NCBI GenBank assembly: GCA_947177575.1
Contig: CAMWVA010000015.1
Location: 1-33,883, forward strand
Reading direction: 5' to 3'
Length of the DNA stretch: 33,883 bases
Source of the DNA: an uncultured Porphyromonadaceae bacterium
GTDB taxonomy: Bacteria > Bacteroidota > Bacteroidia > Bacteroidales > Muribaculaceae
In this document: one piece after another, positions 1-15,367 of the stretch
How positions within the stretch are numbered: the stretch's first letter is position 1
How the letters are laid out: every line of letters starts with the position of its first letter
Notes under the pieces: generated by a model
Told to the model about the DNA's origin: nothing
Seen by the model: the letters and a program-made list of their open reading frames with translations, nothing else
The model's database searches: none
Position numbers and translations under genes: made by a program

Positions 1-24
1 CGGGAGAGTAGGTAATTGCCACCT
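1..24 (+). rRNA. rrf: 5S ribosomal RNA, 3' end only
   Basis: The first bases (GGGAGAGTAGG, then a short TGCCACC end) match the conserved 3' strand of bacterial 5S rRNA, where GGGAGAGUAGG closes helix IV/V and the last bases pair with the 5' end. The rest of the gene, and presumably the 23S and 16S genes, lie to the left of the window. A strong intrinsic terminator follows at once, as expected for the end of an rRNA operon. The exact last base could be off by one or two. Confidence 0.8.
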
Positions 25-32
25 TAAGCAGA

Positions 33-66
33 AGCGGCTTCCGAGCAATCGGGAGCCGCTTTTTTG
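33..66 (+). terminator. Intrinsic terminator of the rRNA operon
   Basis: A 10-bp stem (AGCGGCTTCC at 33-42, GGGAGCCGCT at 51-60, one G-U pair) with an 8-nt loop is followed by a run of T at 60-65. The stem-loop itself contains one unit resembling the array that follows: TCCGA at 40-44, then TCGGG nine bases later at 49-53. Confidence 0.9.
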
Positions 67-67
67 T

Positions 68-286
68 TTGTCCGACCAATCGGATTTCTCCGAATTATCG
101 GAGTCATCTGAATTATCAGATTTATCGGAGCAATCGGAGAAGTCGGAACTATCTGAATTATCGGAGCTATCAGATATAATCCGATAATTCAGATAACTCG
201 GATTACTCTGATAGTTCTGATAAATCCGATTACTCCGATAATTCGGATTATTCCGATTACTCCGATACTTCGGACAACTCCGATTT
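68..286. repeat. TCNGA 9-bp array 1, mirrored
   Basis: Twelve TCNGA cores start at 71, 80, 89 and so on to 170. Twelve more start at 180, 189 and so on to 279. The period is exactly 9 bp except for one 10-bp step at the centre (about 177). The four-base linkers flip orientation there: left of centre they read like ATTA or GCTA, right of centre TAAT or TAGT. The two 108-bp arms are therefore imperfect reverse complements and could fold into one long interrupted hairpin or cruciform. The array begins within a few bases of the rRNA terminator T-run and ends inside the -33 box of the next promoter. No function is known to me. Confidence 0.93.
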
Positions 287-315
287 GCAATGTTCGATTT
301 ATTTCTGTAATTTTG
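285..315 (+). promoter_or_regulatory. Bacteroidales-type promoter for the 355-1509 gene
   Basis: TTG at 285-287 and TAATTTTG at 308-315 are separated by 20 nt, matching the Bacteroidetes -33/-7 consensus. The -33 box touches the last array unit. Transcription should start near 320, giving a leader of about 35 nt before the ATG at 355. Confidence 0.75.
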
Positions 316-354
316 CGTGCTTTTTACTTTATTATCACACTTAATAGTTTTATT

Positions 355-1509
355 ATGAGAAATTTTTTACTTTCTGTTGGTCTGGTGTCTTTGTGCGCTT
401 TTGGTGTTGAGGCATCGGAAGTAACTCTGGAGATGGCTTCGGCCACTGATATCCAAGGCGATTGGGTAGACACTGTTCTTAAGGACGACGGTAGTGTACA
501 GGCCTATGAACATTATGACAATGTGACTTCGCTCAAACTCGGTGATTATCTGTTTGAGCTGACTACAGCTGAGGGTTCTAATGCTAATGCTTATTATAAG
601 GCTGCTGATGCTGCTGCTTATACCCTGCGTGTGTATCGTGGTAACTCTGTTACGATAACTGCTCCTGCCGGTGAACCGATGGGAACTATACAGCTGACAT
701 GCACTACCGTAAAGGCAGTGAGCGATCAGAATCCTATCATTGCTTCGGTTGGCGGAGTAAGTTATGATAACAAAGTGATAACATGGACTAACTCAGAGGC
801 AGTGGAGGCAGTGACTTTGACTTTGCCGAGTGACAAGCAGGGCTCTGACAATCCGCAGATACGTATTTGTGAAGTGTCTATTAGTTCTGATACCGGCACA
901 GTTCCCGGTCCTGTAGAGCCGACTGAAGGTGTAAAATTCAATTTGGCATCTTCTATTGAGAGTGGTCAGAAGTATGTTATAGTAGCTGATGGCCATATAG
1001 CCTCTCCTGTTCCTGCTGATAAGAAATACGGTTATCTGCAGATTGGTGAATGTACTGTTGAAGGAATTACAGTGACTGCTGTTGCTGATTATGCTTTCAC
1101 TCTTGAGGCTTCAGGTGCTGGTTATACTATACGTCAGGCTGACGGCCGTTACCTCTATCAGACAGGTAACTATAATTCCTTTAATGTATCAGAGGATATT
1201 GTAGAAGGATGTATGTGGTCTGTCGAGATTGCTGAAGACGGCGTGGCTACTATTAAGAACGAGAGTGTAGGAAAGACTATACAGTATGATGGCCAGTATA
1301 ATTCTTATGGTAGCTATGAGGATATTCGTGCTACTCTGCCCAGTCTTTACCTTATGGCTGATGACAGTCTCGTGGAGAGCATTGAGTCTGTGCAGACTTC
1401 TGAGGCTGTTTATTATGATATAAACGGACGTCGTGTCAATGGTATGCCTGAGCGTGGTCTCTATATCAAGATTGCTGATGGTGTAGCTGCTAAAGTAATG
1501 ATAAAGTAA
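355..1509 (+). CDS. Secreted protein with short C-terminal sorting-like tail, function unknown
   Basis: This 384-residue protein starts at the ATG at 355. An in-frame TTG at 313 lies inside the promoter and can be excluded. The N-terminus (MRNFLLSVGLVSLCAFGVEA) is a clear signal peptide. Two parts can be seen: an N-terminal beta-rich region (about 20-190) and, after a Pro-rich linker (TVPGPVEP), a region with a GQKYVIVADG start and GRYLYQTG motifs. The second part resembles small beta-trefoil or lectin-like modules of Bacteroidetes surface proteins; this is a weak resemblance. The last 30 residues (YYDINGRRV, then GLYIKIADG and a basic end) form the short tail also seen in four other proteins here. 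It lies alone between arrays 1 and 2. Substrate or partner cannot be told. Confidence 0.85.
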   Translation: MRNFLLSVGLVSLCAFGVEASEVTLEMASATDIQGDWVDTVLKDDGSVQAYEHYDNVTSLKLGDYLFELTTAEGSNANAYYKAADAAAYTLRVYRGNSVTITAPAGEPMGTIQLTCTTVKAVSDQNPIIASVGGVSYDNKVITWTNSEAVEAVTLTLPSDKQGSDNPQIRICEVSISSDTGTVPGPVEPTEGVKFNLASSIESGQKYVIVADGHIASPVPADKKYGYLQIGECTVEGITVTAVADYAFTLEASGAGYTIRQADGRYLYQTGNYNSFNVSEDIVEGCMWSVEIAEDGVATIKNESVGKTIQYDGQYNSYGSYEDIRATLPSLYLMADDSLVESIESVQTSEAVYYDINGRRVNGMPERGLYIKIADGVAAKVMIK

Positions 1510-1525
1510 TAATTCAGTAAGAATT

Positions 1526-1600
1526 GCAAAGTTTACCCCCTCATTTCTCTTCATTCAGAAGAGAAATGAGGGGGTAAACTTTGCCGGAGCAGAGCTCCGG
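1526..1600 (+). terminator. 27-bp perfect hairpin plus a second small hairpin after the 355-1509 gene
   Basis: The arms at 1526-1552 and 1558-1584 are perfect reverse complements over 27 bp, with a 5-nt loop and a C5/G5 block. The structure begins 16 bases after the stop codon. A second stem (CCGGAGC at 1584-1590, GCTCCGG at 1594-1600) abuts it. There is no T-run on either strand, so it is an atypical intrinsic terminator. It may act as a 3'-end stabiliser or a roadblock hairpin instead. Confidence 0.7.
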
Positions 1601-1633
1601 GCGGAAACCAGCTTCGCGTGGCTACGTAAAGAA

Positions 1634-1867
1634 TCGGATTTGTCTGAGGTATCGGAGTTATCAGAATCATCCGAACTGTCGGATAATTCCGCTTCCTCCG
1701 ATAGTTCCGATAATTCAGATAACTCTGATAGCTCCGACAGTTCTGATACCTCTGATAGCTCTGATAATTCAGATAATTCCGATAGCTCCGATACCTCGGA
1801 TAAATCTGATAATTCGGATGATTCTGATAGCTCCGAGAAGGCGGAGTTATCCGAGAAAAGCTTCCGA
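1634..1867. repeat. TCNGA 9-bp array 2, asymmetric mirror
   Basis: Positions 1634, 1643, 1652 and so on to 1850 (25 positions, 9 bp apart) carry TCNGA in 23 cases. The exceptions are TCCGC at 1688 and GCGGA at 1841. One further core is out of phase at 1863. Linkers flip near 1684, giving a short left arm (about 6 units) and a long right arm (about 19 units). The left arm has an exact 17-nt complement in the right arm (1659-1675 with 1813-1829). The array sits between the hairpin pair at 1526-1600 and the rplM promoter. Confidence 0.92.
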
Positions 1868-2001
1868 TTGCTGGAAGGAGAGGATGCTAGTGAGGAACTG
1901 AAGCCAAAAAGAGATGTAAGGGGAGAAGGAGAGAAAAGAGGGAAGAGAGGTGGAAAAGAAAATAAAAAAAGCCAAAAAGTCAAAAAAATAAGTATAAGGG
2001 G
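1868..2001. other. Purine-rich spacer without a recognisable gene
   Basis: From about 1873 to 1990 the plus strand is dominated by G and A, ending in A-rich tracts just upstream of the rplM promoter. Open frames run through it from array 2 on both strands, but they have no independent start signals and no recognisable domain. The A-rich part could act as an upstream promoter element. Confidence 0.5.
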
Positions 2002-2032
2002 TTGCGTAGGAATGATAAAAGTTGTAATTTTG
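2002..2032 (+). promoter_or_regulatory. Promoter of the rplM-rpsI operon
   Basis: TTG at 2002-2004 and TAATTTTG at 2025-2032 are separated by 20 nt. This is the Bacteroidales consensus, preceded by an A-rich stretch. It predicts a 5' leader of about 115 nt before the GTG start at 2155. Confidence 0.78.
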
Positions 2033-2054
2033 CAAGCCGATTATATCCAGTTGT

Positions 2055-2120
2055 AATTAGCGGCTGTTGGACAGGCCGAGCTATTTGGCCTTAGCTACGG
2101 TATGTTTTTAGCCGCAAATG
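2055..2120 (+). promoter_or_regulatory. Structured 5' leader of rplM, probable L13 autoregulatory leader
   Basis: A closing stem GCGGCT (2060-2065) with AGCCGC (2110-2115) encloses an internal AGGCC/GGCCT hairpin. L13-type leaders bound by the ribosomal protein are known in several phyla, and I recall one described for Bacteroidia. Assignment to that class is inference from position and fold. Confidence 0.5.
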
Positions 2121-2154
2121 AACCAATAATCACCTTTAAAGCATAGAAATCCAA

Positions 2155-2634
2155 GTGGATACATTAAGCTATAAGACGCTGTCAGCCACCCCTGAGACTA
2201 TTAAGAAGGAATGGGTGGTAATTGATGCGACCGGTCAGGTACTGGGTCGTCTCTGCTCAAAAGTTGCCAAGATACTTCGTGGCAAATATAAGCCCGATTT
2301 TACTCCGAATCTGGATATGGGCGATAATGTAATCATTATCAACGCCGACAAGGCTATAATGACTAACGGTAAGATGGAAAAGCGCGAATATCTGCGCTAC
2401 ACGGGCTATCCTGGCGGTCAGCGTGCTTATAATCCTGCCTCGCTGATGGCTAAATCCTACAAGAAGACCATCAAGGCCGGTCGTCATCCTCTCTATATAA
2501 AGATAGTAAAGGGTATGCTTCCTAAGACTAAGCTCGGTGCTGCCCAGCTGCGCAATCTTTATGTTTATAATACACCAGAACATCCCCATGCTTCGGTGAA
2601 TCCTACAGTAATTGATATCAACAAACTGAAATAA
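2155..2634 (+). CDS. rplM: 50S ribosomal protein L13
   Basis: L13 is an early-assembly protein of the large subunit that binds 23S rRNA. The 159-residue product matches the family throughout: WVVIDATGQVLGRL near the start, the GDNVIIINADK segment, YTGYPGG and the KGMLPK motif. The start codon is GTG. It gives MDTLSYKT, the usual Bacteroidales N-terminus, and no better ATG exists. It opens an operon with rpsI only 9 bases downstream, the near-universal L13-S9 pair. Confidence 0.98.
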   Translation: MDTLSYKTLSATPETIKKEWVVIDATGQVLGRLCSKVAKILRGKYKPDFTPNLDMGDNVIIINADKAIMTNGKMEKREYLRYTGYPGGQRAYNPASLMAKSYKKTIKAGRHPLYIKIVKGMLPKTKLGAAQLRNLYVYNTPEHPHASVNPTVIDINKLK

Positions 2635-2643
2635 GAGAAGACG

Positions 2644-3030
2644 ATGGAAAAAGTAAATGCACTTGGTCGCCGTAAGGCAGCTGTAGCGAGAGTTTATCTT
2701 TCGGAGGGCAACGGTACTATTACAATCAATAAGCGTGCTCTCGATGTATATTTCCCCTCGTCGATACTGCAGTATGTTGTGAAGCAGCCGCTCCACAAGC
2801 TCGACGTTGTTGAGAAATATGATATTTACGCACATCTTGATGGTGGCGGTTATAAGGGTCAGGCCGAGGCTCTTCGTCTGGCTATAGCCCGCGCTCTTGT
2901 TAAGATCAATCCCGAGGACAAACCGGCTCTGCGTGCCGAAGGCTTCATGACCCGTGACCCTCGTACTGTAGAGCGTAAGAAACCCGGTCAGCCCAAAGCT
3001 CGTAAGCGTTTCCAGTTCTCGAAACGTTAA
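2644..3030 (+). CDS. rpsI: 30S ribosomal protein S9
   Basis: S9 reaches the decoding centre with its C-terminal tail, which contacts P-site tRNA. The 128-residue protein shows the family start (NALGRRKAAVARVYL), the GGGYKGQAEALRLAIARAL helix region and the basic SKR end that touches tRNA. The ATG follows rplM after 9 bases, so the two are translated from one message. Confidence 0.98.
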   Translation: MEKVNALGRRKAAVARVYLSEGNGTITINKRALDVYFPSSILQYVVKQPLHKLDVVEKYDIYAHLDGGGYKGQAEALRLAIARALVKINPEDKPALRAEGFMTRDPRTVERKKPGQPKARKRFQFSKR

Positions 3031-3207
3031 TATACGGTCGGTATGCAGTCCGATGGCATATACCGTCGGTCTTTGCCGCAGTTTAGTATCAAAACCGTCT
3101 GGATGGACACGTTCCCTACCTGACGGTTGCATGTCCCCCATTAGCGGTCACGGCCGCTGCAGGGCAGCGAATGTAAAAGAACGTAAACAAATCACACAGA
3201 CACACAA
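3031..3207 (+). promoter_or_regulatory. Structured leader upstream of rpsB
   Basis: This 177-nt gap is rich in inverted repeats: an ACGGT/ACCGT stem with inner ATGC/GCAT near 3034-3066, ACCGTC/GACGGT near 3090-3128, and GCGG/CCGC near 3144-3157. I find no good -7 box in it. That fits a regulatory mRNA leader for S2 and EF-Ts inside a longer transcript, or a processing site after rpsI. S2-binding rpsB leaders are known in other bacteria; for this lineage it is an inference. Confidence 0.45.
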
Positions 3208-4035
3208 ATGGCAACACCCACATTTGAACAGCTTCTCGAGGCCGGCTGTCATTTCGGCCACCTCAAACGTAAATGGAATCCTGCCATGGAGCCGTACATC
3301 TTCATGGAGCGTAACGGTATCCATATCATTGACCTCTATAAGACAGCCGCTAAAATCGATGAGGCCGCTCAGGCTCTCAAGCAGCTTGCCAAGACCGGTA
3401 AGAAAGTGCTCTTTGTAGCTACAAAGAAGCAGGCTAAAGAGACAGTAGCCGACAAGGCTGCCTCAGTAGGCATGCCTTTCGTAATAGAGCGCTGGCCGGG
3501 CGGTATGCTTACCAACTTCCCCACTATCCGTAAGGCAGTCAAAAAAATGACTACTATCGATAAGATGACCAAAGATGGTACTTTCGATAATCTGTCAAAG
3601 CGTGAGAAGCTGCAGATCACACGTCAGCGTGCCAAGCTTGAGAAGAACCTCGGCAGTATAGCTGATCTGAGCCGTCTTCCGTCAGCTCTGTTTGTAGTCG
3701 ACGTTATGAAAGAGCACATTGCCGTTGCTGAGGCTAACCGTCTTGGTATTCCTGTGTTCGCTATCGTTGATACCAACTCTGATCCTGAGAACGTAGATTA
3801 CGTTATTCCTGCTAATGACGATGCTTCCAAGAGCATAGAGCTTATCCTTGATGCTGTATGCAGCGCTATGGCTGAGGGTCTGGAAGAGCGTAAGGTAGAG
3901 AAACTTGATACACCCGAGGATAAGGAAGAAGGAGAAACTCCTGCCGCTGGCAAGCGTCGTCGTGTACGTCGTAACGATTCAGCTGCTGCAGCTCCTGCTC
4001 CTGCTCCCGAGGCTGAGGCTGAAACTGAAGCCTGA
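3208..4035 (+). CDS. rpsB: 30S ribosomal protein S2
   Basis: S2 binds late to the small-subunit body near S1. The 275-residue product has the classic LLEAGCHFGHLKRKWNPAM start, the IIDLYKTAAKI segment, RWPGGMLTN and the IPVFAIVDTNSDP motif. The last 40 or so residues form a charged, Ala/Pro/Glu-rich tail (RRRVRRND, then alternating Ala, Pro and Glu). This tail extends beyond the E. coli protein and is common in Bacteroidetes S2. tsf follows after 30 bases, the usual rpsB-tsf pair. Confidence 0.98.
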   Translation: MATPTFEQLLEAGCHFGHLKRKWNPAMEPYIFMERNGIHIIDLYKTAAKIDEAAQALKQLAKTGKKVLFVATKKQAKETVADKAASVGMPFVIERWPGGMLTNFPTIRKAVKKMTTIDKMTKDGTFDNLSKREKLQITRQRAKLEKNLGSIADLSRLPSALFVVDVMKEHIAVAEANRLGIPVFAIVDTNSDPENVDYVIPANDDASKSIELILDAVCSAMAEGLEERKVEKLDTPEDKEEGETPAAGKRRRVRRNDSAAAAPAPAPEAEAETEA

Positions 4036-4065
4036 TAACATTAACACTGACAGCATATCATAAAG

Positions 4066-5058
4066 ATGGCAGTATCAATAGAAGATATAAAGAAGCTCCG
4101 TACTATGACCGGAGCTGGCATGATGGACTGCAAGAACGCTCTGGCTGAAACCGGCGGCGATATTCAGGCAGCTATCGAAATCATACGTAAGAAAGGTCAG
4201 GCCGTTGCTGCCAAGCGTGAGGATCGCGAGGCTGCCGAAGGCTGTGTGCTGGCTGCTACAAAGCCCGGTTTCGCAGCTATCGTGGCTCTGAAATGCGAGA
4301 CTGACTTCGTTGCTAAGAACGAGTCTTTCCGCGCTCTGACCAAGTCTATTCTTGATGTAGCTTTAGAGGCCGGTGCCAAGACTCTTGACGAGGTTAAAAA
4401 TCTCCAGCTCGACGGTCGTACAGTTGCTGAGAAAATCACTGACGAAATCGGTAAGACCGGTGAAAAGATGGAACTTGGCGCTTACGAGTATGTAGAGGCT
4501 CCTTCAGTAGCTGCATACGAACACCTCGGCAATAAGCTTGCCACTATCGTAGGTCTCAGCGCAGAGGGTATCGACGAACATGTAGGTCGCGAGGTTGCTA
4601 TGCAGGTAGCTGCTATGAATCCTGTATCAGTTGACCGTGACCATGTTGCTCCCGAGGTTATCGAAAGCGAAAAGGCTGTAGCCGTTGAGAAGACCAAAGA
4701 GGAACAGGTACATAAGGCTGTAGAGGCAGCTCTTAGGAAAGCCGGTATCAATCCTAACCTTGTTGATTCGGAGGATCACATTGCTTCGAACATCACTAAG
4801 GGCTGGCTTACAGAAGAGGATGCTGAAAAGGCTCGCGTAATCATTAAGACTACTGCTGAAGCTAAGGCTGCCAATCTGCCTGAGCAGATGATTCAGAATA
4901 TCGTTAAGGGCCGTCTGGAGAAGTTCTTTAAGGAGAACTGCCTGATGGAACAGGAATATCACCGTGACGCCAAGCTCACTATCGCTCAGTATCTGAACGG
5001 TGAGCAGGAGGGTCTGGTTGTTGTTGAGTTCAAGCGCGTCAACCTCAATCAGGACTGA
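4066..5058 (+). CDS. tsf: Elongation factor Ts
   Basis: EF-Ts is the nucleotide exchange factor that releases GDP from EF-Tu. The 330-residue protein carries the N-terminal UBA-like helical module (IKKLRTMTGAGMMDCKNAL), the TDFVAKN exchange motif near residue 85, and two core subdomains with a coiled segment. It is longer than the E. coli protein (283 residues), mainly through an extra charged helical stretch around 200-270. It is the last gene of the operon and is followed by two hairpins and array 3. Confidence 0.97.
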   Translation: MAVSIEDIKKLRTMTGAGMMDCKNALAETGGDIQAAIEIIRKKGQAVAAKREDREAAEGCVLAATKPGFAAIVALKCETDFVAKNESFRALTKSILDVALEAGAKTLDEVKNLQLDGRTVAEKITDEIGKTGEKMELGAYEYVEAPSVAAYEHLGNKLATIVGLSAEGIDEHVGREVAMQVAAMNPVSVDRDHVAPEVIESEKAVAVEKTKEEQVHKAVEAALRKAGINPNLVDSEDHIASNITKGWLTEEDAEKARVIIKTTAEAKAANLPEQMIQNIVKGRLEKFFKENCLMEQEYHRDAKLTIAQYLNGEQEGLVVVEFKRVNLNQD

Positions 5059-5104
5059 TAAACGGCAGCACGGATAAGGAAATACCCAAACATCCCTATC
5101 CCCC

Positions 5105-5188
5105 TCAAGGGCTTCAATGCCCTTGAATAATATCCCAAATCAACCCCTGGAAGCCCCGGAGTCGTGAGACTGTGGGGCTTTGTTTTGT
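5105..5188 (+). terminator. Double hairpin terminator of the rpsB-tsf operon
   Basis: The first hairpin is a perfect 8-bp stem (TCAAGGGC at 5105-5112, GCCCTTGA at 5119-5126). The second is AAGCCCC (5151-5157) with GGGGCTT and an inner AGTC/GACT stem, followed by TTTGTTTTGTT up to 5189. The second is a standard intrinsic terminator. Array 3 starts directly at its T-run. Confidence 0.87.
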
Positions 5189-5436
5189 TCGAGTAATCGG
5201 ATTTCTCCGAATTATCCGAGTAATCGGATTTCTCGGAATAATCGGAGTAATCAGAACTGTCGGAGCTATCGGAGTAATCGGAAAATTCCGATCGCTCTGA
5301 TAATTCCGACAGTTCTGATTACTCCGATAACTCTGATTATTCTGATTACTCCGATAAATCCGATAATTCGGAGAAATCGGATAATTCGGAGAAATCAGAT
5401 AATTCGGAGAAATCCGATAAAATCCGATTATTCGGA
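5189..5436. repeat. TCNGA 9-bp array 3, mirrored, between convergent genes
   Basis: TCNGA cores occur at 5197, 5206 and so on to 5413 without a break (25 cores, 9 bp apart). Two more follow after a one-base slip, at 5423 and 5432, and a degenerate TCGAG sits at the left edge. Linkers flip at about 5284, the centre of a CGGAA/TTCCG palindrome. An exact 24-nt complement lies across the centre (5241-5264 with 5305-5328), including the irregular linker CAGT. The last unit overlaps the final codons and TAA stop of the minus-strand CCA gene. No known function. Confidence 0.94.
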
Positions 5437-6849
5437 GTCACGTGTTGCTTCGGGCAGCGTCATCATGTAGTCCCAGGCGGCATCGTGTTCGTAGGGTATG
5501 CGGCCGTCGAGTATGGCTTCTTTGACGGCGTCTTTGAGTGTCTGGATACGTTTACCTGTCTCCACAGAACGTTCAAGACCGAGACGTTCGATGATTTCAT
5601 TACCGTTTATCGGATGTTTCCAGTTGCGTAGGGCGTCAGCATCGTTAATCTGCTCCATACGTTCGCGTAAGGCAGCGAAACCAGCCAGCTGGCGACGTAC
5701 CTTATCGGGATTCTTTGAAGTAATGTCAGCCTCGGCCAGAGTCATAAGGTCGTCAAGTTCGGCACCAGCATCTGTTATGAGACGACGTACACCGCTATCT
5801 GTAACGCCATTATCAGCTACTCCCTGAGGGCGCATGTGCATACCCACGAGTTTGGCTACATACTTCATCTTTTCATTAAGGGGCATTTTCATCTGGCGAA
5901 AGATACGCCCTACCATCTTTTCGCCTACGGTATTGTGATTGTGAAATGTCCAGCCAAGACGTGGGTCATAACGTTTGGTTACAGGCTTTGCTATATCATG
6001 CAGCAGAGCCGCCCAGCGCAGCCACTCGTTATCGCTACGTGCAGCGACTTGATCAAGTACCTGCAGAGTATGTGCAAAATTGTCTTTGTGGCCTCTGCCT
6101 TCTACACTTTCGACACCTTTAAGAGCTATAAGCTGTGGGAAAATGAGTTCAAGTAAGCCCGACATATCAAGCAGGCGCCAACCTACGGAAGGCTTGGAAG
6201 TGCGCATTATTTTGGAAAGCTCGTCGTTGATACGCTCACGCGTTATGATGCTTATACGCTCACGGTTGCGTGAGATGGCCTTGAATGTTTCAGGCACTAT
6301 ATGGAAGCCGAGGCGTGTGGCGAAACGTATGGCCCGCAGCATACGCAGCGGGTCATCGCTGAAGGTTATATCAGGGTCGAGAGGTGTGCGTATCAGACGG
6401 CGGTGCAGATCATCGAGACCGTTAAAAGGGTCTACCAATTCTCCGAAGCGATCTGCATTAAGGCATATAGCCATAGCATTGACTGTAAAGTCACGACGTG
6501 CCTGATCATCTGCCAAAGTGCCATCTTCCACTATAGGATTACGGCTTTCACGCTGATAGGATTCGCGGCGTGCCCCTACAAATTCGAGTTCGAGACCATC
6601 ATGTACCACCTGTGCTGTGCCATAGGTGGCAAATACCGTCAGACGGTTGTGATGTCCGAGAGCTTCCGAGACACGGCGGGCCAGCTCTATGCCGGACCCG
6701 ACGGTGACGAAATCAATATCATCAGAAGGTATGCCCAACAGCAGGTCACGTACAAAACCGCCTACTACATATACTTCACGGCCCATTTTGTCGGCTATGT
6801 CACCGACAAGACGGAATATAGGATTGGAAAGTTGTTCAGAGAGGTTCAT
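5428..6849 (-). CDS. cca: tRNA nucleotidyltransferase (CCA-adding enzyme) with HD domain
   Basis: The enzyme adds or repairs the 3' CCA of tRNA without a template, using CTP and ATP. The 473-residue protein has the class II nucleotidyltransferase head: VVGGFVRDLLLG (residues 28-39), the metal-binding DDID at 43-46, RRDFTVNA (118-125) and DDPLRMLRAIRFA (165-177). An HD domain with H260 and H284-D285 follows. The fold also fits poly(A) polymerase, but full length plus the HD part is the usual Bacteroidales CCA enzyme. It starts 39 bases after the M24 peptidase stop, at the end of the rny-side operon. Its last codons (Asp-Ser-Glu-stop) lie in array 3, so the array has fixed or replaced the original 3' end. 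Confidence 0.93.
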   Translation of the reverse strand: MNLSEQLSNPIFRLVGDIADKMGREVYVVGGFVRDLLLGIPSDDIDFVTVGSGIELARRVSEALGHHNRLTVFATYGTAQVVHDGLELEFVGARRESYQRESRNPIVEDGTLADDQARRDFTVNAMAICLNADRFGELVDPFNGLDDLHRRLIRTPLDPDITFSDDPLRMLRAIRFATRLGFHIVPETFKAISRNRERISIITRERINDELSKIMRTSKPSVGWRLLDMSGLLELIFPQLIALKGVESVEGRGHKDNFAHTLQVLDQVAARSDNEWLRWAALLHDIAKPVTKRYDPRLGWTFHNHNTVGEKMVGRIFRQMKMPLNEKMKYVAKLVGMHMRPQGVADNGVTDSGVRRLITDAGAELDDLMTLAEADITSKNPDKVRRQLAGFAALRERMEQINDADALRNWKHPINGNEIIERLGLERSVETGKRIQTLKDAVKEAILDGRIPYEHDAAWDYMMTLPEATRDSE

Positions 6850-12466: not shown

Positions 12467-15367
12467 TCAGTACCAGTTGATACCGTTCTGGGCCGATGAA
12501 CGCTTGTCCCACTTGAGGTCCTGCAATAACGACGACTTGACAGCTATGTGGAAGTTATAGCTTTTGTACGGACCGACAGGCACGAACGAAGCGGTCATGG
12601 TGAAACAGTGTATGTCACGTGACATCGAACAGTTCATGTATGCTATCTTCTTCAGGTCAAAATTATATGAGGCCGAGAAGGAGAAGTTCCAGTTCTTGGT
12701 GGGGCGTATGTTGCCGCTGAACGAAAGGTTCTGAGTGAATTTGCCACGGAAGTCGAGGCGGTCGTAGTCAAATTCTCCGTATCCGTAATTGACCGAATAA
12801 TTGAGCGACAGGCTCCAAGGACAGCTCCATGATGCATACCCGTCTACATCCGCACTGTTTGTTTCATCTTCCTGACGGCGTCCGGCACGTGCACGGTTGT
12901 TGAAGGCATCTTCTTCTTCGGTGTCCGGCTCTTCGTCTGTGCCGTCGGTATTATTGCGTGAGTTATCGCGTGAGCTGTCTTTCTTCCTGCGGAATGTATC
13001 GTTATTGAAGGTATATGAGAACGAGGTTCCGGTCGATGACAGTTTGGCCAGACCCTTACCGTGAGCTATACGCAGACGGTCTACTTTAACAGGTGAGCCC
13101 GATGGCGTCAGAGCATAGCAGTAGGGGTCCCATGTGGCGTTGAGGTTGAGGTTGAAACTCTTGGTGAGGCGGAGCAGTATCGAAGTGTTTATATTCGACA
13201 GTCGCATCGAGTCGGCCGCAAAGTTGTAACTCTGACCTATCGACAGATTCTCGATGAGAGATATTTTCTTGATTCCGGTTGAGTCCGAATTGCTTTTGAC
13301 CTTCATCTCGAGGTTATTGGCCAGCTGTACAGTCACTGTGCCTGACTTTCCGGCCGAAGGAGCTCCTAACACACCGTGACTGAAGTATGAATAACGGCGT
13401 GATATAGGATTACCGTTTGAGTCGAAATACGAATAATTACCGAAATAACCCCAGAAAGGTTCCGAGAAGTCGGGTGAGGCTGAGAATGATACTGTCGGTG
13501 TCAGTACGTGACGTATCATCTGCACCTTGTCGCCAAGGAACTTCATTGGCTTGAAGAAGCCGTACACTTTGGTGTCGAAAGACAGCGAAGCGTTAAAGTC
13601 GAAGAGATTATAAAAACCGTATATAGTATCGAGTACCTCGCGTGAAGCCTGCGAGTCCCACTCGCGGCGTATCTTCGAAGTGTACATACGGTCATTCAGG
13701 GTTATCGATGGCGAGACGTTTATGTACTTCAGCAGCGAGAAGGTCGCCGATACCGGTATGTAGTGTTTGATACCGTTACGCCAGTCACGTATCAGGCTTT
13801 TCTTGAAAAATACGTCCTGACGTGCCGTAAGCGAATTCTGGAACTGTCCTGAATATGAAAGTTTGATTTTCTCGTACCAGCGTTCACCTCCTACAGCGCG
13901 TTTGCGCTTGAACGGAGCTGTCTGACTCATCGTTACCGTCAGATTAGGAAATGATACGGCTAATGTGGAGTCCTGAGTACGCTGTGCTATATTGGCTGTA
14001 GCCGAGGCACTCCATTTCGTGCCCGGGAAACGGTAGGTGAGGTTGACAGTAGATGACTTGGTGTTTTCGGTAAACGAATTGTTGTAATACGAGTTGAGGT
14101 CGTTGCGTGTATAACCTGAGGTAGCGAAGTTGACCGAGGCCGAAAGATTCATGTTCGGATTGGCCTTAGCGTCCTGACTGTGACTCCATACTACCTGAAA
14201 GTTATTCTGTTTTACATAGTCGTCCGAACCTTTGTCACCTGTGATAGTGGTGAGATAGGAGATATTGAAGTTACCCGAATATTTATAGCGCTTGCGATAT
14301 GTGGAGTGTCCCGATACACCCCACGAACCTTTCGTATATATCTCGCCGCGTACGGCTAAGTCGACGTAATCGTTTATGGCAAAATAGTAACCGCCGTCAC
14401 GCAGATAGAAACCGCGATTGTAGTCGTCGCCGAATGTAGGGAAAATAATACCTGACGAATAGTCTTTTGTGAAAGGGAAGTAACCGAACGGCAGAGCTAT
14501 GGGCAGCGGAACATCGGCCAGCACCATATATACCGGTCCGGTAACAATATCCTTCTTAGGACGCATTTTGCCGCGTGTCACCTGAAAGTAGAAGTGCGGA
14601 TGTTCATGGTCGTCACAGGTGGTATATTTACCGTCGGCTATGAAAAACGACCCGTCTTCCATCTTTTTTGTTCTGCCGCCGGTCAGATAACCCTCGCCTT
14701 GTTCCGTGATGACATCGGTGATGTATCCGCGCTCGGTACGGAAGTTATACTTCATCTGCTTCGACTCGTACTCGGTACCTCCGTCCTGAAATACAGGAGT
14801 GCCTGACAGGTTGCCTAATGAGTCATACACACCGGTAGCGTAGACAGTAGATGAGTCGAGCTCCATGCGTATCTCGGCCGAAGCAAGTTTGAAGGCTTGA
14901 TATTCTACTTTACCGTCACCGTAAAGATAGGCATTGTTATTGCCTAACATTATGAGTGAGTCTTTGGCCGAAAACTGCACACTGCCGTCAAGGTCAACTT
15001 TGTCTCGCACTATCTTCGACAGGCGTGTGCGGCCATCGGTACCCGGCAGACTGTCATCACCGGCAAGCGAGTAACGGTCATTTGGCAGTTGCCATCCCAT
15101 ACTGTCAACGTAGGCAGTACTGTCATTATAGAATAGGGTATCTGTCAGAAGGCTGTCAGCTGCTAAATACTCCTTCCCCCATACACTGTCAGCGACGTTG
15201 AGCGGTCCGTCAGAAGGCATAGCAAAAGCAGCGGCAGAATCGGTTTCTGTCGCCTTGCCTTGCATGTCATCGGAAGCGATCCGGCGGTAAGAGGGCGCTC
15301 CGAAGTGTCCGGCGTATGCAGCGGCCATCAGTGGCAGAGCCGCTATATATATCAGTAGTCGCCTCAA
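12467..15367 (-). CDS. lptD: LPS-assembly outer membrane protein LptD
   Basis: LptD forms, with LptE, the outer-membrane gate that places lipopolysaccharide in the outer leaflet. The 966-residue protein has a signal peptide (MRRLLIYIAALPLMAAAYA), an OstA-like periplasmic beta-jellyroll (about 115-260: NNNAYLYGDGKVEYQ, KYTTCDDHEHPHFYF) and a long C-terminal barrel with alternating aromatic strands. An acidic, Asn/Arg-rich insert (about 795-840) lies within the barrel and is probably a loop. It is longer than E. coli LptD (784), as usual for Bacteroidetes. It has its own promoter at 15433-15462. Confidence 0.93.
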   Translation of the reverse strand: MRRLLIYIAALPLMAAAYAGHFGAPSYRRIASDDMQGKATETDSAAAFAMPSDGPLNVADSVWGKEYLAADSLLTDTLFYNDSTAYVDSMGWQLPNDRYSLAGDDSLPGTDGRTRLSKIVRDKVDLDGSVQFSAKDSLIMLGNNNAYLYGDGKVEYQAFKLASAEIRMELDSSTVYATGVYDSLGNLSGTPVFQDGGTEYESKQMKYNFRTERGYITDVITEQGEGYLTGGRTKKMEDGSFFIADGKYTTCDDHEHPHFYFQVTRGKMRPKKDIVTGPVYMVLADVPLPIALPFGYFPFTKDYSSGIIFPTFGDDYNRGFYLRDGGYYFAINDYVDLAVRGEIYTKGSWGVSGHSTYRKRYKYSGNFNISYLTTITGDKGSDDYVKQNNFQVVWSHSQDAKANPNMNLSASVNFATSGYTRNDLNSYYNNSFTENTKSSTVNLTYRFPGTKWSASATANIAQRTQDSTLAVSFPNLTVTMSQTAPFKRKRAVGGERWYEKIKLSYSGQFQNSLTARQDVFFKKSLIRDWRNGIKHYIPVSATFSLLKYINVSPSITLNDRMYTSKIRREWDSQASREVLDTIYGFYNLFDFNASLSFDTKVYGFFKPMKFLGDKVQMIRHVLTPTVSFSASPDFSEPFWGYFGNYSYFDSNGNPISRRYSYFSHGVLGAPSAGKSGTVTVQLANNLEMKVKSNSDSTGIKKISLIENLSIGQSYNFAADSMRLSNINTSILLRLTKSFNLNLNATWDPYCYALTPSGSPVKVDRLRIAHGKGLAKLSSTGTSFSYTFNNDTFRRKKDSSRDNSRNNTDGTDEEPDTEEEDAFNNRARAGRRQEDETNSADVDGYASWSCPWSLSLNYSVNYGYGEFDYDRLDFRGKFTQNLSFSGNIRPTKNWNFSFSASYNFDLKKIAYMNCSMSRDIHCFTMTASFVPVGPYKSYNFHIAVKSSLLQDLKWDKRSSAQNGINWY

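Follow-up and report, generated by a model that had tools for sequence, protein, structure and literature searches.

Dispersed palindromes are common, and several kinds of short palindromic or tandem repeat are known from bacterial chromosomes. The palindromic elements of Rickettsia are palindromes of about 150 bp in families with a conserved peptide (PMC10969869, PMC2996958), and repetitive extragenic palindromic (REP) sequences are single extragenic palindromes of 20-40 bp with proposed roles at mRNA ends and in supercoiling (PMC3733652). The TAACTGA arrays of Beggiatoaceae, Cyanobacteria and some Bacteroidetes are direct repeats of a fixed 7-bp unit, mostly just upstream of start codons (PMC4679880); the PARCEL coding palindromes have an amphipathic 75-bp unit (25 residues) and occur only in coding DNA (PMC2996958); and BrickBuilt of Porphyromonas gingivalis has a 23-bp unit with leader and tail, in about 19 copies, always intergenic and 49-591 bp from genes (PMC4596501). 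Here we describe arrays of a 9-bp unit with the core TCNGA in an uncultured Porphyromonadaceae bacterium (Muribaculaceae), starting from a stretch of 33,883 nucleotides (contig CAMWVA010000015.1, assembly GCA_947177575.1), called the window below. A search of open-licence papers found no description of such arrays.

Three arrays lie in the window (Table 1). The 24, 23 and 27 cores counted in the initial annotation were confirmed; the spacing, which had been called exactly 9 bp, includes one 10-bp step at the centre of array 1 (170 to 180) and another near the end of array 3 (5413 to 5423). The longest exact 9-bp chain of TCNGA in the window has 25 cores; in 300 first-order Markov resamples of the window no chain exceeded 3. 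Elsewhere in the window TCNGA occurs about as often as base composition predicts (147 sites, against 127.6 expected). When the whole assembly (3.2 Mb in 210 contigs) was searched with array 1, 102 matches were found; at the fetched places there were at least 40 arrays with 892 cores, and since 40 of 64 candidates were scored, these counts are minima. It is clear that the three window arrays are real, lie far beyond chance and are part of a genome-wide family. Two of the 40 sit in identical copies at locus L030 (1212/1212 bases); the second copy was left out of the analyses of duplex energy, identity pairing, unit similarity and gene rate, and stop codons.

The arrays have a common anatomy, which was also examined in a sister species (the genome of L057, record CAMWKC010000053.1; G061), where there were 61 matches and at least 26 arrays at 25 fetched places. 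Two-armed arrays make up 30 of the 40 here and 18 of the 26 in the sister, the other 10 and 8 being one-armed. In all 48, GTTATCGGA-like units come first and TCCGATAAC-like units follow; the reversed polarity was seen in none of the 40 arrays here or the 26 in the sister. Read outward, the unit has the core T, C, C>G/T, G, A and a linker that leans to T, A/T, A/G, C/T, and right-arm units as written have nearly the same profile as left-arm units in reverse complement (from 419 right-arm and 344 left-arm units in this genome and 247 and 208 in the sister; those without a clear direction were excluded). The centre is free, as first proposed, in that all four bases occur, but it is uneven and biased by arm: read outward in this genome, C accounts for 0.56-0.57, G for 0.18-0.24, T for 0.15-0.21 and A for 0.04. 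With both genomes summed, 1233 of the 1321 intervals from one core to the next measure exactly 9 bp. A core is missing from 34 of 926 slots in this genome and from 21 of 516 in the sister, and array length ranges from about 50 to 310 bp. An array is a rule, a directional unit in two blocks that meet at the centre, instead of one fixed sequence. Because the two arms are opposed, two-armed arrays can fold into long hairpins.

As far as the cited descriptions go, each known kind resembles the arrays in part. Like the Rickettsia elements, which were compared by description, they are palindromic and occur both between genes and in frame inside unrelated genes; unlike them, they have no alignable sequence of about 150 bp and no conserved peptide, and the number of units, the free positions and the length all vary. 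Since the in-frame palindrome is shared but the fixed element is not, we did not file them under this heading. They share with REP sequences that they are numerous dispersed palindromes near gene ends, yet in place of the single extragenic palindrome of 20-40 bp that defines REP (BIME) there are long arrays, some within genes. Like the TAACTGA arrays they have short units in spacers, some long, some near a start or stop and occasionally in genes, but the unit is a variable one of 9 bp in opposed arms instead of a direct repeat of 7 bp. Tandem repetition, dyad symmetry of the DNA and protein coding are common to PARCEL, from which the arrays differ in their 9-bp unit and in not being confined to coding DNA. 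BrickBuilt is likewise a repeat array in a Bacteroidales genome, but with a 23-bp unit and always intergenic, whereas here the unit is 9 bp and also found in genes. Judged at the L035 array and in the window, the arrays do not match an intrinsic terminator, with its GC-rich stem and immediate T run. Clustered regularly interspaced short palindromic repeats (CRISPR) consist of repeats of two to four dozen bases with unique spacers between them, and the 9-bp unit is too short for these, as had been noted. The nearest known kinds are the Rickettsia palindromic elements and REP-like repeats, and the arrays fit neither definition.

Comparison with the sister species showed which positions are held. 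A flank matching that of a sister array was found for 24 of the 40 arrays, on both sides for 17 (the L030 copy counting twice), and 16 of 40 had no placement in the sister; only array-bearing places were compared, so losses cannot be shown. Twenty-one pairs were aligned, 16 with both flanks matched and five with one (window 71, L037, L039, L045:3 and L046), and their flanks differ by 12.3% (877/7148). In the 17 pairs outside genes, scored only where this genome has TCNGA and with an aligner that may favour matching cores, the core bases differ rarely (T 4/331, C 9/333, G 8/337, A 2/330), the centre at 126/333 and the four linker positions at 75/310, 96/300, 87/313 and 98/316. The share of 9-bp slots lacking a core, given above, serves as a check that does not depend on this scoring. 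The result still holds when the five one-flank pairs are excluded: in the 16 both-flank pairs the core differs at 1.7% of 1209 sites and the centre at 41.7% of 302, and in the 12 of these outside genes at 1.6% of 933 and 39.5% of 233. As a yardstick, 49 genes (mean protein identity, 94.6%) differ at 34.8% of four-fold sites (2811/8074) and 2.2% of second codon positions. The two species give a clean readout: divergence at four of the nine bases resembles that of second codon positions, and divergence at the centre that of silent sites. At the centre, orthologous arrays differ almost as much as unrelated ones do (0.378 vs 0.445). The central result is that array places persist between the species with TC and GA retained and the free positions nearly saturated.

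One might suppose that this pattern reflects protein-level selection, the arrays being, or having been, Ser-Asp/Glu-X linkers with TC and GA as codon positions one and two. Arrays within genes do use this frame, and such codons look like TC-N-GA-N, but the core is equally conserved where stops or frameshifts close the array in both species (13 pairs: core 1.8% of 1035 sites, centre 36.3% of 259; nine both-flank pairs: 1.8% of 733 and 38.3% of 183). Moreover, the frame of the array relative to the preceding gene is random (14, 9 and 13 cases), and the silent base of the Ser codon tracks the arm and not codon usage, as described below. We consider protein-level selection very unlikely, and a purely coding explanation was rejected for the intergenic arrays on the closed arrays, the random frame and the arm-dependent silent base. 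With a core divergence of about 2% and a centre divergence of about 38%, also where translation is blocked, TC and GA are under purifying selection as a nucleic-acid rule. The initial annotation had read TC-N-GA every 9 bp from the window; the rule holds genome-wide, and arrays closed to translation conserve TC and GA as well. In this way a short repeated rule can be shown to be under selection ahead of its function.

The arrays had been proposed to be a structural intergenic family. Many do lie between genes; because several stand in frame inside genes, the family is not solely intergenic. In this genome the genes that enclose arrays are OstA-like (twice) and BirA-like (a biotin ligase), and further arrays stand at the ends of tyrosine recombinase, HipA-like and GH35 genes; in other genomes an HU-like gene carries one, and a metallo-beta-lactamase-fold frame has one in its N-terminal part. 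The initial annotation had said that arrays confined to this genome, or scattered in genes in one consistent frame, would argue against the family; neither was observed, since other genomes of the family have arrays too, and these lie between genes as well as within them. Inside genes they translate as Ser-Asp/Glu-X, with the free centre as the silent base of the Ser codon; the frame of L056, which reads its array differently, is an exception. The BirA protein query matched 52 of the 61 genomes of the genus, this one among them; for each of the remaining 51, the first matched piece ends at or before residue 161, before or at the array edge. The BirA site was readable in 27 of 29 fetched congeners and carried an array in none of the 27; the sister has an array there, with a different sequence. 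The arrays are a case of palindromic repeats in frame within conserved proteins.

Nine two-armed arrays within genes were compared, drawn from four genomes and with orthologues counted separately. In the 5' arm 69 of 89 units have a purine as the silent Ser base, and in the 3' arm 62 of 87 have a pyrimidine (p 9e-11, units not independent), the arms having been assigned from the linkers and not from the centre base. The four arrays of this genome alone gave 30/41 purines (5') and 30/43 pyrimidines (3'), p 1e-4. Genome-wide Ser usage is TCA 0.34, TCC 0.14, TCG 0.27 and TCT 0.24. The silent base follows the arm, not codon usage, which a protein-level rule does not predict. We also noticed that L049:2212-2802 and L162:2441-3136 encode what appear by eye to be orthologous proteins; both hold an array at the same position, with one arm in one genome and two in the other.

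With genes taken as the longest open frames and classes assigned by hand, arrays were found in convergent gaps, in same-direction gaps, in gaps running from a terminator to a promoter-like site (arrays 1 and 2) and inside genes; a single array (L037:4290) has divergent frames on either side. Across the two genomes there are 36 cases in which a long frame ends just before an array, and in 31 of them the stop codon is 0-9 bp from the first core. The stop codon of the minus-strand gene at 5428..6849 falls within the edge of array 3, and at L038 the final array unit contains the start codon (ATG) of the following frame. In 12 cases the stop falls within the array, and 8 of these use the Ser frame. 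The idea that translation runs past the preceding stop into the Ser frame was rejected on the random frames of the 36 cases.

Single-strand folding against shuffles gave z values of -11.3 for array 1 (array alone, without the neighbouring terminator), -9.1 for array 2 and -15.1 for array 3, whose arms match each other better than the arms of any other array in this genome. Over 30 arrays, duplex energy averaged -74.0 kcal/mol for own arms and -69.7 for swapped arms (permutation p 0.0008). In the 14 arrays of convergent gaps, a sample in which orthologous pairs are not independent, own arms beat swapped ones by identity score with a mean z of 1.15 (p 0.004 vs the other 33). The mirror pattern is general, and in-register pairing is maintained mainly in convergent gaps.

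The reading we favour, which is plausible although we would put it at less than even chances, is that the arrays are mirror-symmetric, coding-compatible and register-tolerant hairpin spacers at gene ends, with a period of three codons. The arrays would form long hairpins in the transcripts of abutting genes, at 3' ends and in intergenic spacers, and would protect or separate transcript ends. Any unit of one arm could pair with many units of the other, so that 9 bp might be gained or lost without losing the fold. In addition, either strand of the unit has one frame that gives Ser-Asp/Glu-X, so that an array can sit in a protein, where it would act as a soluble acidic linker. We prefer a foldable spacer for three reasons: the arrays have a mirror layout, their arms pair in convergent gaps, and stop codons abut them. 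The fixed polarity of the arms, the strong folds of the window arrays, the selection on TC and GA also in arrays closed to translation and the arm-dependent silent Ser base count in its favour as well, as does the convergent array of L035, around which no terminator-like site of another kind (a GC-rich stem with an immediate T run) was found.

Several results weigh against this reading. Identity-scored in-register pairing over 47 two-armed arrays was not significant (p 0.16), and own against cross-species arms showed a trend (p 0.07-0.08; 17 pairs). G-U was not in excess over A-C on the transcript strand, and at one of the three positions the test leaned the opposite way (p 0.03); RNA pairing is therefore not favoured over DNA pairing. 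Wobble tolerance on the transcript strand was rejected as no such tolerance was seen. Pairing by itself accounts neither for constant TC and GA around a drifting centre nor for the absence of the reverse polarity, and the arrays in genes and in operons are evidence against a simple terminator. A bound factor suits the contrast between the fixed bases and the drifting centre as well or better, and the fixed polarity suits either a directional reader or descent from one element. In separate scans of the window, no match to Rfam 15 reached any family's gathering threshold, and a tRNA search found none; the only array-linked terminator-like hit in the window is a short stem at 5436-5423 on the minus strand.

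Such a factor might be a putative DNA- or RNA-binding protein with TCNGA or the directional unit as its target. It would cover the array in steps of 9 bp, and the mirror layout would make a two-way site. Four fixed bases around a drifting centre are the trace expected of a recognition site, a directional reader would account for the fixed polarity of the arms, and third-position base use is strand-symmetric. The two-fold symmetric protein first suggested agrees with the retention of TC and GA, but a symmetric site requires neither a directional unit in two opposed blocks nor an arm-biased centre. TCNGA near expectation outside the arrays also speaks against a binding protein, and no candidate for TCNGA binding or modification turned up, no search for one having been made. 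We regard this main rival as possible but rather unlikely.

The fixed polarity could also stem from a selfish or neutral palindromic repeat, descended from one two-armed element, spread by copying and homogenised by exchange. This would agree with the patchy presence in the family, with a unit likeness hardly higher within arrays than between them (0.508 vs 0.482) and with the comparable elements known in Rickettsia (PMC10969869). Exchange should, however, affect all nine positions equally, yet the same four are fixed and five vary in both species; recent spread is not evident, with 24 of 40 places common to the sister, and no pattern linking the arrays to Y1 transposases was seen. We think this origin unlikely, somewhat more so than a bound protein. 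For the Y1 transposases, Y1_Tnp matched in 27 of 37 genomes, weakly and twice in this one, and not at all in the array-bearing G006 and G019. Local slippage was rejected as the main force, the likeness of neighbouring units being 0.500 at lag 1 and 0.507-0.545 at lags 2-6, with similar likeness within and between arrays.

Taken more broadly, the arrays may be a second nucleic-acid code laid over many loci, and over the protein code in genes. It would consist of a directional 9-bp word and its mirror image across a centre, which a putative factor or the folding of the transcript would read, and it would stay at the same gene ends as individual units are gained and lost. We regard this proposal as possible but rather unlikely. 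The comparison of the two species makes precise predictions on arms, centre and polarity for cultivable Bacteroidales.

The array 1 query matched in 10 of 36 congeners and in none of 24 genomes from other families of the order. In a sample of the family (own genome included, two candidates scored per genome), 14 of 297 genomes matched, as did 8 of 30 genera. Sixteen places were fetched from genomes found in this sample or with the BirA query; 15 carried a rule-following chain, some two-armed (G288, G228) and some one-armed. Relaxed cores such as TCCAAT occur in G015, G010 and G032, so the TCNGA core is not fixed everywhere. The presence of arrays is patchy across other genera of the family. 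Array 1 had no match in phage and plasmid records, though BLAST masks simple repeats. A relative carries a different 9-bp tandem repeat, TTATAAGAT, at L071:9800-9842 and 12844-12876.

The assemblies are drafts, 11 of the 40 arrays lie within 400 bp of a contig end and the right flank of array 1 disagrees between the two genomes, all of which could point to an assembly artefact. As 16 array places have both flanks matched in two genomes, chance is excluded and arrays are present in other genera, we consider this practically negligible. No empty site was found in the sister at the four loci L035, L043, L036 and L047: at the first three the matched sister contig ends before the array place, where presence is not proven, and at L047 one sister piece runs into the tail of the array. 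Among tsf loci elsewhere, the array 3 gap was never seen without an array and with the same neighbours near tsf, except in distant ones with another gene order. To the left of array 1 (window 1-70), 63 bases match the left side of a sister array (L138:600-670), whose right side carries the gene of L031 and not the gene right of array 1; either recombination or mis-joining at the array in one genome would give this mismatch. The identical copies at L030:1789-3000 and 3890-5101 (G000:C148), each with an array and the start of a FabG-like gene, represent a duplication or an assembly fault.

Table 1. Arrays and neighbouring features in the window, and arrays beside 23S-intervening-sequence-type genes elsewhere
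Feature	Position	Strand	Description
Array 1	71-283		24 TCNGA cores
Array 1, left arm	71..174	no strand	12 cores, mostly GTTATCGGA-like units
Array 1, right arm	180..283	no strand	12 cores, TCCGATAAC-like units
Array 2	1634-1854		23 TCNGA cores and two empty 9-bp slots
Array 2, left part	1634..1683	no strand	6 cores, the final one already right-pointing
Array 2, right part	1697..1854	no strand	17 cores, the final one past an empty slot
Array 3	5197-5436		27 TCNGA cores
Array 3, left arm	5197..5282	no strand	10 cores
Array 3, right arm	5287..5436	no strand	17 cores, outer ones of mixed direction
Terminator-like hairpin (intrinsic type) with T run	30..63	+	directly before array 1
Promoter-like site	284..315	+	TTTG, 20 bp, TAATTTTG; starts at the last unit of array 1; presumed from the Bacteroides consensus
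Gene left of array 3	4066..5058	+	presumably elongation factor Ts, named by us from its sequence; query for finding relatives
Convergent gene right of array 3	5428..6849	-	poly A polymerase head, RNA-binding and HD domains
Arrays by 23S-intervening-sequence-type gene	L037:3471-4491, L166:3134-3274, L167:3079-3202, L213:1806-2746

In four genomes, arrays adjoin or lie in the tail of a small protein gene of the 23S-intervening-sequence type, an assignment that comes from a Pfam match below the cut-off at L213 and from likeness for the other three. Finally, a long and, by eye, apparently perfect hairpin (GTTTACCCCCTCATTTCTCTTC and its complement) lies at 1534-1584 of the window, between the first gene and array 2.

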